DNA from: a bacterium
GTDB taxonomy: Bacteria; RBG-13-66-14
NCBI GenBank assembly: GCA_035528375.1
Contig: DATKYS010000051.1
Location: 20,341-84,340, forward strand
Reading direction: 5' to 3'
DNA length: 64,000 nt
The notes below the pieces were generated by a model that had not been told where the DNA came from, ran no database searches, and saw only the letters and a program-made list of their open reading frames with translations. Every line of letters starts with the position of its first letter. Positions within the stretch are counted from its first letter, which is position 1. The position numbers and the translations under genes were made by a program. This document shows positions 51,024-53,993 of this stretch, piece after piece.

Positions 51024-51806
51024 ATGCTTATAACCGCCGCTCGCTCGACCATCGCGCTCCTCATCGCCGCCGTACTCCTGGCCGGTTGCGGCGGGGGCGA
51101 GGCCCCGATCCCCGAGGACGTCGGGGCGCAGCCGGTGAACGACGGCCCGTCCCCCCTCCCCGGTCCGCCGGGAGACACGGCCGAAGGCGCGGAACGTCCG
51201 AGCGTGACCTATACCTCCATCTGCACCCCTCCCGGCGGCGAGCCCTTCTCCACCGAGGTGACCCTCACCCGGTGCGCGGACTGCGCCGAGGCCTTCGAGC
51301 TCGTCTGGACCGGCGGGGGTCACGACGCCCGGGGCGTGGGGATGACCTTCGGGGAAGGTCTCTTCGCCGTGGCCCGGATCGGCCCCGGGGGACTGGTCGT
51401 CGGCGTGTACCGGCTCGAGGAGCGGGGGCTCACCGGGCGCTGGACCGGCGGCGACGGAATCGGCGCGGAGGCCATCGGCGAGGCCTCCGGCGAACCGCCG
51501 ACCCTGGGCGCGTGGCCCGAGGACGCGGTGTTCGAGGTGACCGGGGAGGGCCCCGACGGGGCGGAGTACCAGGGCTTCCTCCAGGCCAAGCCCTGGAACG
51601 GGGCGGTGGTGCTGCGCTGGACCGTGGGGGAGGAGCAGATACCCGGCGGCGCGCTTCCCGTCGGCGACTGGCTCGTGGCCGGCTTCAACCAGGGCACCTA
51701 CGGCGTCTCCGTGTACGCGAGGGACGAGAACGGCTGGCGGGGGCGGTGGTACGCCCCGGGGAACGGCGCCTTCGGCGAGGAGTCGCTGGCGCCCTACGCC
51801 GAGTGA
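51024..51806 (+). CDS. Lipoprotein of unknown function
   Basis: A 260-residue predicted lipoprotein; the signal MLITAARSTIALLIAAVLLA is followed by the lipid-modified Cys22 (LLAGC). A proline-rich linker of about 30 residues leads to an all-beta domain with regularly spaced Gly/Trp strands (GGLVVGVYRLEERGLTGRW, YGVSVYARDENGWRGRWY). The two Y-R-L/R-W repeats suggest a duplicated lipocalin- or barrel-like sheet. I recognise no family. It is monocistronic. Confidence 0.7.
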   Translation: MLITAARSTIALLIAAVLLAGCGGGEAPIPEDVGAQPVNDGPSPLPGPPGDTAEGAERPSVTYTSICTPPGGEPFSTEVTLTRCADCAEAFELVWTGGGHDARGVGMTFGEGLFAVARIGPGGLVVGVYRLEERGLTGRWTGGDGIGAEAIGEASGEPPTLGAWPEDAVFEVTGEGPDGAEYQGFLQAKPWNGAVVLRWTVGEEQIPGGALPVGDWLVAGFNQGTYGVSVYARDENGWRGRWYAPGNGAFGEESLAPYAE

Positions 51807-51809
51807 ACG

Positions 51810-51838
51810 TTGAGATCGGCGCCGAAACGGCCTATACT
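51810..51838 (+). promoter_or_regulatory. Promoter for the six-repeat knotted-type protein
   Basis: TTGAGA (51810-51815) and TATACT (51833-51838) are 17 bases apart. The leader is about 110 bases long. Confidence 0.65.
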
Positions 51839-51955
51839 TGGAACGTAACCTGGGCCCGCTACGAGCGGAATGCCCGCGGCGGCACGCAGAGGACTCGTCC
51901 TACGGAGCCGCCCTACACGTACACCGGACCCGCGACACGGGAGGGGAGGTGCGCG

Positions 51956-52291
51956 GTGAAGAAGCTCTTCGCGGTCCTGACCCTGGCGGCGTTCGCCCCC
52001 GCACCGGCGGGCAACGTCTACGTGGCCGATTACGAATCCTACGCCGACCTCAACGTCTACGTCGCGGACTACGAGTCCTACGCCGATTTGAACGTCTACG
52101 TAGTGGACTACGAGAGCTACGCCGCAGGCGAGGACGCCCTGTGGTATTTCGTGGACTACGAGTCCTACGCCGACGTGGTCATCTACTACGTGGATTACGA
52201 GTCCTACGCCGACCTCAAGGTGTACTTCGTGGACTACGAGTCCTACGCCGGCTGGAACAAGGGCCATCCATGGCAGGAACGCCTGCACTGA
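51956..52291 (+). CDS. Small secreted protein with six DYESYA repeats, DUF6150/7(1) septoil-knot-like
   Basis: A 111-residue exported protein. The start is GTG at 51956, five bases after GGGGAGGT; the signal peptide MKKLFAVLTLAAFAPAPAG follows. The mature part is six near-identical units of the form V-Y-x-V-D-Y-E-S-Y-A-D-(L/V), where D-Y-E-S-Y-A is invariant in all six; unit 3 is longer (AAGEDALWYF). The pattern, including the insertion after the third unit and the final AGWN, matches what I remember of DUF6150, annotated as a 7(1) septoil-knot fold. Function is unknown. A hairpin terminator separates it from the barrel gene. Confidence 0.75.
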   Translation: MKKLFAVLTLAAFAPAPAGNVYVADYESYADLNVYVADYESYADLNVYVVDYESYAAGEDALWYFVDYESYADVVIYYVDYESYADLKVYFVDYESYAGWNKGHPWQERLH

Positions 52292-52364: not shown

Positions 52365-53993
52365 GTGAGATATTCCACCGCATCGCTTTTGATAATCCTG
52401 GCCGCCTCGGCCGGGGCTCTCCCCCTGGTGGGCCTGGAGGGGGACGGGGCGGAGCTGCCCGAGCTGACCGTGCTCCGGGTGGGGGAGGAATTCGACGAGG
52501 AGCTGGCGGATCGGGCGCTCAAAGCGGCGGCGGCCTCCCTGGCCGCTGAGGGCTACCTGGACGCCCGGTTGGTGCCTTCATCGTCTGCGCGCGAGGGCGG
52601 CGTGCTGCTGCGGGTCACCCTGGAGCGGGGCGAGCGGGCCCCCCTGGGCGGGCTGACGGTGAACGGCGCCCGGGCCGTCGAGCCGCGGCTGGTCGAGGCG
52701 GCGGCGCGCACCGGCTGGCGCAGGGACGGGCCGACCGGCCTCATCCGGGCCGTGGGCGACCTCTACGCCTCGGCGGGCTACCTGAACGCCGAGGTGGCGC
52801 TGGTCGAGCCGAGACGCGCGGACGACGGGTCGCTCAACCTGACCCTTGAGCTGGCGGAGGGAGACCTCACCTGCGTGGACACGATCGAGGTCGTGGGCCT
52901 GGACGACGACGCGCAGCGCACCGCCCTGGCCGCCCTGGGGCTGGCGCGGGGCGACCCCTTGACCCCCAACGCCCTGGAGGCGGCCCGACGCCGCATGGAA
53001 CGAACGGGTTACTACGACCACGTCGCGCTCACCCTCGACGGGACGACCCTGCGGCTCGAGGTCGAGCCGGGGCGGACGGTTTACTTCGACGGCGCCCTGG
53101 GCCTCGGCGAAACGGGGGGCGAGACCGAGCTCTACGGGGAGATCCAGTTCAGCCTCGTTAACCTGGGCGGCGGGGGGCACGACCTCGCGGGGCTGTACAG
53201 ACGGACTTCTCCCGACAACGCCGACTACCGGGCGGCATACACCGAGCGGTTCCTCTTCGGCAGTCGGGCAGCGCTGGAACTAGCCTACACCGGCCTCCGA
53301 CGCGCCAACCGCCGCTCCGACGCCGGCGAGGCCGAATTGCGCCAGCCGCTGGGCGACCACCTCGAGCTCTCCATCGCCGCCCGGTTCTCCTCCGACTTTC
53401 AGGAGGGCGTCGGGTCGAGTGTCTATCTGGGCGCCGGGCTGGGGGCCCTTCTGGATTACACCGACCGGCCGCGCGACCCCACCGACGGCTTCGACCTGTG
53501 GTGCAGGCTGGAAGCCGGCCAGCGGCGCTACGATGCTCGGCGGGAGACGCCGCTCCGGGCCCGGCTGGGGGGCGACGGATTCTGGACGCCCCTCGAACCG
53601 CACACCCTCGCGCTGTTGCTGGAGGGCGGGCTGGCCGACGTCCGGCCGCCGGTGTCCCTGGACTGCTTCTACCTGGGCGGCGCGTACAGACCCCGCGGCT
53701 ACCGCAACCGCGAGCTGCCCACCGACGCGTACGCCCTGGCCACGGCCGAGTACCGACTGCGGCTGGGGGATTCGGGACGCCTCTTCGCCTTCGGCGACTT
53801 CGCCTACTATCGGCCGCTCTCCACCGCGCCCTTCACGACCCCGACGACGTGGACACGGGCCCTCGGTTACGGAATCGGCCTGGTCGTCAACCTGGGGGTG
53901 GGCAGCCTCGAGGTGGTTTACGCCCTCAACGAGGATTCGAGCCTGGACTCCGGCGTCCTGGAGGTACGGCTCGTCCTGGACCGCCTGCTGTAA
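52365..53993 (+). CDS. Omp85-family outer-membrane protein with POTRA domains
   Basis: A 542-residue exported protein, GTG start at 52365, signal MRYSTASLLIILAASAGA. About three POTRA-like units come first (LTVNGARAVEPRLVEAAA, IEVVGLDDDAQRTALAALGL). They lead to a C-terminal barrel of alternating strands with the Omp85 loop motif FYLGGAYRPRGYRNRE, where R-G-Y is the conserved lid-lock signature. The family inserts or secretes outer-membrane proteins (BamA/TamA). At 542 residues it is shorter than BamA and closer to TamA-like members. Its cargo is unknown. Confidence 0.82.
   Translation: MRYSTASLLIILAASAGALPLVGLEGDGAELPELTVLRVGEEFDEELADRALKAAAASLAAEGYLDARLVPSSSAREGGVLLRVTLERGERAPLGGLTVNGARAVEPRLVEAAARTGWRRDGPTGLIRAVGDLYASAGYLNAEVALVEPRRADDGSLNLTLELAEGDLTCVDTIEVVGLDDDAQRTALAALGLARGDPLTPNALEAARRRMERTGYYDHVALTLDGTTLRLEVEPGRTVYFDGALGLGETGGETELYGEIQFSLVNLGGGGHDLAGLYRRTSPDNADYRAAYTERFLFGSRAALELAYTGLRRANRRSDAGEAELRQPLGDHLELSIAARFSSDFQEGVGSSVYLGAGLGALLDYTDRPRDPTDGFDLWCRLEAGQRRYDARRETPLRARLGGDGFWTPLEPHTLALLLEGGLADVRPPVSLDCFYLGGAYRPRGYRNRELPTDAYALATAEYRLRLGDSGRLFAFGDFAYYRPLSTAPFTTPTTWTRALGYGIGLVVNLGVGSLEVVYALNEDSSLDSGVLEVRLVLDRLL

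Follow-up and report, generated by a model that had tools for sequence, protein, structure and literature searches.

A DUF6150 repeat protein of Candidatus Coatesbacteria is probably an exported, ring-wound 7_1 knot with coordinated repeat motifs

The gene at positions 51956-52291 (forward strand) of the 64,000-nucleotide stretch analysed here (the window) encodes a new member of the known family DUF6150 (PF19647), in a genome of Candidatus Coatesbacteria. Overall, the evidence is best explained by a real exported protein that is likely wound into a ring as a 7_1 knot, with the motifs of its six repeats matched by selection. What is new is the coordinated switching of these motifs across the family, together with sequence-level support for its strand order.

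The gene encodes 111 amino acids from a GTG start at 51956, the original prediction having been right on reading frame, strand and coordinates, as the translation confirms. A Shine-Dalgarno-like GGAGGGGAGG (51940-51949, forward strand) lies 6 nt 5' of the start codon, and a sigma-70-like promoter, TTGAGA-17-TATACT (51810-51838, forward strand), matches the consensus at 10 of 12 positions; one such promoter-like site was found 5' of the gene versus 0.1 expected from shuffled sequences, a comparison of consensus matches only, in line with the gene's proposed own promoter. Residues 1-18, MKKLFAVLTLAAFAPAPA (51956-52009, forward strand), have the sequence pattern of a signal peptide, with A-P-A preceding G19 at the putative cleavage site; a simple test (hydrophobic core plus A-x-A) detects a candidate signal peptide in 87 of 89 relatives as well, consistent with the secretion signal originally proposed. 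In the translation, the core DYESYA recurs at residues 25-30 (52028-52045) and from residues 38 (52067-52084), 51 (52106-52123), 67 (52154-52171), 80 (52193-52210) and 93 (52232-52249), all on the forward strand; its serine is encoded by AGC in the third repeat and by TCC in the others. The six tandem units with an invariant core are thus as first described, except that the unit spans 13 residues (39 nt) and not 12. Units 3 and 4 are spaced by 48 nt, corresponding to a 3-residue insertion that alignments and spacing place within the link AGEDALWYFV (52124-52153, forward strand). The C-terminal GWNKGHPWQERLH (52250-52288, forward strand), ending in AGWN and carrying a GW that is nearly invariant in the family, would provide the seventh, closing strand position. 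Measured against the orthologous genes of two sister species (L037 of Candidatus Coatesbacteria RBG_13_66_14, 89% identical, and L015), the mature protein shows a dN/dS of 0.14-0.36, which indicates that the gene is real and under selection; together with six perfect in-register hexamers, this purifying selection excludes chance.

Family membership is clear: hmmscan against Pfam gives 41.3 bits (E 1.6e-10) over profile positions 8-90 of 98, versus a curated gathering cut-off of 27 bits. The copy of Pfam used names PF19647 only as DUF6150, the label '7(1) septoil knot' coming from public annotation, and the literature searched contains no publication naming DUF6150 or PF19647. Six units, an insertion after unit 3 (family-wide in the form (N/E)DxLW(Y/F)) and an AGW ending are common to relatives in two family alignments and 80 GTDB loci, and the putative signal peptide is shared as well, so that the layout noticed first is the standard layout of the family; the original prediction was right both in what it observed and in the family it named, including the insertion and the AGW ending as family traits. 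DUF6150 is present in 8 of 14 genomes of the window organism's phylum, in 36 of 42 genomes of the phylum of Fermentibacterota/Aegiribacteria, and in 20 of 395 evenly sampled Bacteroidota, reaching 47/348 and 179/349 genomes in the orders of two Bacteroidota loci. Members also occur on a few IMG/VR contigs, and no match was found in the phage or plasmid collections searched. The putatively viral IMG/VR contigs L117-L120 carry DUF6150 genes with signal peptides, the same divergent gene being present on L118-L120.

The genome of the window contains further copies. A second clear one (L002:1465-1692, contig C92) carries the motif DAEYQA and has four units, versus six in the sister-species copy L008, reflecting either an in-frame loss of two units or an assembly collapse; a genuine four-unit protein with its closing strand would be compatible with a (2,5) knot of five strands. 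Another sister-species copy (L011), as far as its contig extends, shows three units preceding the insertion. A third, divergent copy (L003:1501-1800, contig C112; also L012) scores 11 bits, under the Pfam cut-off; in two genera of the family it directly follows, on the downstream side, a gene for a Clp/Hsp100-type ATPase. Elsewhere in Coatesbacteria, one genome harbours three tandem DUF6150 genes (L009, L014, L019; also L038), whose prevailing motifs differ from gene to gene (DYEYQA, DYESQA, DYESGA), each kept through the six units of its gene.

The repeats of a given protein resemble each other more than they resemble those of other proteins. At motif positions 2, 4 and 5, repeats of one protein agree at 0.97, 0.98 and 0.90, versus 0.88, 0.72 and 0.70 for repeats of different proteins, and the same-numbered repeat in another protein has no agreement advantage. 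Corrected for chance, agreement at these three positions is ~0.7-0.8 irrespective of the distance between repeats, with values of ~0.74 and above in 201 non-redundant proteins. Of 197 non-redundant members with readable codons, 119 carry the same residues at these three positions throughout their six repeats, and perfect uniformity of the whole hexamer was found in 7 of 88 members of the first sample, so that the impression of unusually uniform repeats in the window protein is correct only in part. Where five or more repeats of a protein match, 22 different motifs are seen, so the motif has switched at least 21 times; a parsimony count on a tree of poor resolution, from which the motif columns were left out, gives 42 switches. 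The best reading of these sequence patterns is that selection keeps the ring of repeats matched.

Structure prediction points to a specific fold. AlphaFold2 with a 71-sequence alignment returned, in one of five models, a mean pLDDT of 86.8 (core ~97) and a fold in which short helical turns separate the six strands; the other four models had ~40, and a single-sequence run (pLDDT 38) was discarded. Compared with the PDB by Foldseek, this model has as its best four matches only entries of Q9PR55 (8IWA, 8IWB, 8JRM), at TM-scores of 0.28-0.39, in agreement with the knotted family fold originally proposed. VIA-align superposes the model, at a moderate Z of 6.3 and an rmsd of 2.3 A, on 62 residues of Q9PR55 (23-84), a segment that includes the reported knotted core, residues 27-83 of the predicted 7_1 knot (PMC9278004), which crystallography has since confirmed (PDB 8IWA; PMC13352647; PMC11223836). 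A fold search of BFVD with the model returned noise. At the sequence level, neither the window protein nor a profile of the 71 members (up to E 10) retrieved a Q9PR55 chain from the PDB, and an IMG/VR member gave chance matches only. AlphaFold is known to ignore topological barriers (PMC10672856). Judged from the model, the window protein probably shares the 7_1 knot of Q9PR55.

An independent line of evidence comes from coevolution between repeats. A (p,q) torus protein turns by p*360/q degrees per repeat (PMC10598012), and a (2,7) arrangement implies the ring order R4-R1-R5-R2-R6-R3-(closing strand), in which ring neighbours are 3 or 4 apart in sequence. This idea was formed on the first 88 proteins, before many further sequences were fetched, partly because position 5 in L015 divides the repeats into a Glu set (R1, R4, R5) and a Tyr set (R2, R3, R6), two contiguous blocks on the ring (chance ~0.1). 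When ring adjacency was tested by plain agreement between repeats, the signal was weak at position 5 (p 0.014 for all sequences, 0.047 for new ones) and nothing was seen at position 2; mean-field direct coupling analysis was run next, on 343 sequences (effective number 134). Of the 15 couplings between repeats at position 5, the top five coincide exactly with the five pairs having |i-j|=3,4; the permutation p is 2/720, the minimum of the test, for all 343 sequences and equally for the 246 outside the set on which the idea was formed. Other settings of the analysis give p 0.003-0.006, and the old 97 sequences give 0.036; four of the five pairs are among the top five in a six-variable model, and all 200 cluster bootstraps return a positive neighbour excess. 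Orders like those of a 5_1 knot, a 9_1 knot or a solenoid give no signal at this position. The ring signal is absent in Fermentibacterota alone, and the other motif positions show at most a trend (all phases pooled, p ~0.1 at default settings). The position-5 couplings thus provide moderate and independent support for the 7_1 ring order, as a readout of strand neighbours that is silent on over- and undercrossings.

Two alternatives bear on topology and on the origin of the repeat likeness. It is unlikely, in our estimation, that the protein has a simpler topology (a 5_1 knot, or an unknotted solenoid or barrel) and that the AlphaFold2 model and the match to Q9PR55 overstate the knot: homologues may indeed differ, as in the predicted pair P73136 (5_1) and Q9PR55 (7_1) (PMC9278004), and both the four poor models and the low TM-scores would fit such a scenario, but the position-5 couplings follow |i-j|=3,4 rather than the |i-j|=2,3 of a five-strand knot or the |i-j|=1 of a solenoid, Q9PR55 entries are the sole structural matches, and the six full units, with the GW strand closing the ring, suffice for seven positions. 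Recent duplication or gene conversion between units, instead of selection, would also produce tandem units with identical motifs, and the four-unit paralogue in the same genome, compared with six units in relatives, suggests that units can be lost. The codons make this improbable: synonymous codons differ between units, a given repeat is nearer by these codons to its counterpart in other species than to the other repeats of its own protein in five of five groups, one codon per position is used throughout in only 4 of 119 uniform proteins, and TCN and AGY are mixed for the same serine in 31 of 72. Such differing codons between repeats argue that selection, not DNA copying, keeps the repeats alike.

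Other alternatives concern what the protein does. Motif uniformity might serve internal packing only, in an envelope protein that is a passive, highly stable structural component or filler and binds no ligand, a possibility to be taken seriously even if we would not bet on it. Agreement irrespective of repeat distance at positions 2, 4 and 5 would be expected in that case, as would a small, usually single gene with no conserved partners; the whole-ring states seen at position 5 (Q, Y, R, E, D, K, G), on the other hand, exceed the needs of packing, and paralogues in one genome carry different motifs. Much less probable is a joint role in outer-membrane assembly with one or both of the flanking gene products, a lipoprotein (51024-51806, forward strand) and an Omp85/POTRA outer-membrane assembly protein (52365-53993, forward strand; POTRA 2e-10, Omp85 3.2e-7). 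Relatives of the lipoprotein (weak NCBIfam match to LIC10280, 9e-7, below cut-off) flank both DUF6150 copies, upstream of the one in the window and downstream of the second (L002:1763-3157), and the order uvrA-lipoprotein-DUF6150-Omp85 is kept in L037 and L015. Yet this association was seen in one genus, neighbours in other phyla are unrelated, the gene order differs at the second copy, and the window gene has its own promoter-like site. No gene neighbour is conserved across phyla or family-wide; an apparent uvrA/ABC cluster in five loci was rejected, as it consisted of unrelated ABC proteins except for one new uvrA.

Returning to the ring-wound 7_1 knot, the data strongly suggest that each 13-residue unit carries the chain 2/7 of the way round a ring of seven positions, giving a (2,7) torus knot. 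The chain would wind twice round the torus, filling the ring in the order R4-R1-R5-R2-R6-R3 before the C-terminal strand, and position-5 residues of ring-neighbouring repeats would touch, so that like is selected beside like. The whole ring would then change motif together, as among DYESQA, DYESYA, DYESRA, DAEYQA, DSKYDA and others, and paralogues would exchange ring chemistry as a whole. Symmetry may be broken by the insertion that follows unit 3 and by the differing termini, which would impose a unique register despite identical motifs. As to function, we tentatively propose, as the likeliest role, a very stable, protease-resistant periplasmic or cell-surface protein whose ring of six identical side chains faces a repetitive ligand or an envelope partner.

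More generally, we lean towards viewing DUF6150 as a widespread exported family of (2,7)-torus-knotted repeat proteins, in which ring contacts would force motifs to switch jointly, coevolution would read out strand order, and near-identical repeats would persist in a deeply knotted chain, where a designed analogue misfolded. Few protein knots rival the 7_1 knot in complexity, and the literature consulted describes a single example confirmed by experiment; this family offers hundreds of small (~95 residues), exported, repeat-built relatives with repeats identical at the motif. Through it, the avoidance of register errors by identical repeats, the use of a knot outside the cytoplasm and the reporting of knot topology by coevolution become testable, the joint motif changes of six near-identical repeats representing a natural test of how knotted identical-repeat proteins fold.

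Compared with its own family, the window protein shares the six 13-residue units, the (N/E)DxLW insertion, the AGW ending and the signal peptide; the commonest motif is DYESQA, while the window protein and L037 have Tyr at position 5 in all six units. Q9PR55 of Ureaplasma, the only PDB match of the predicted fold, has ~20% identity in the structural alignment, in which 62 of its residues align to an 84-residue span of the window protein, which implies fewer units or turns in Q9PR55, or shorter ones. Q9PR55 reportedly resists urea and ClpAP. Secretion is absent from the descriptions of it that we found, whereas the window protein carries a putative signal peptide. P73136, a 112-residue homologue of Q9PR55, is related in fold by prediction, its predicted 5_1 knot being simpler (PMC9278004), a likeness taken here from its description. 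Finally, the de novo designed knotted circular tandem repeat proteins kcTRP3 and kcTRP5 were likewise built as a (2,q) torus knot from q repeats of identical sequence, and a designed five-repeat knot misfolded, for which the authors suspected, in part, the exact identity of the repeats (PMC10598012); those proteins are helical and designed, whereas DUF6150 appears to keep its identical motifs by selection.
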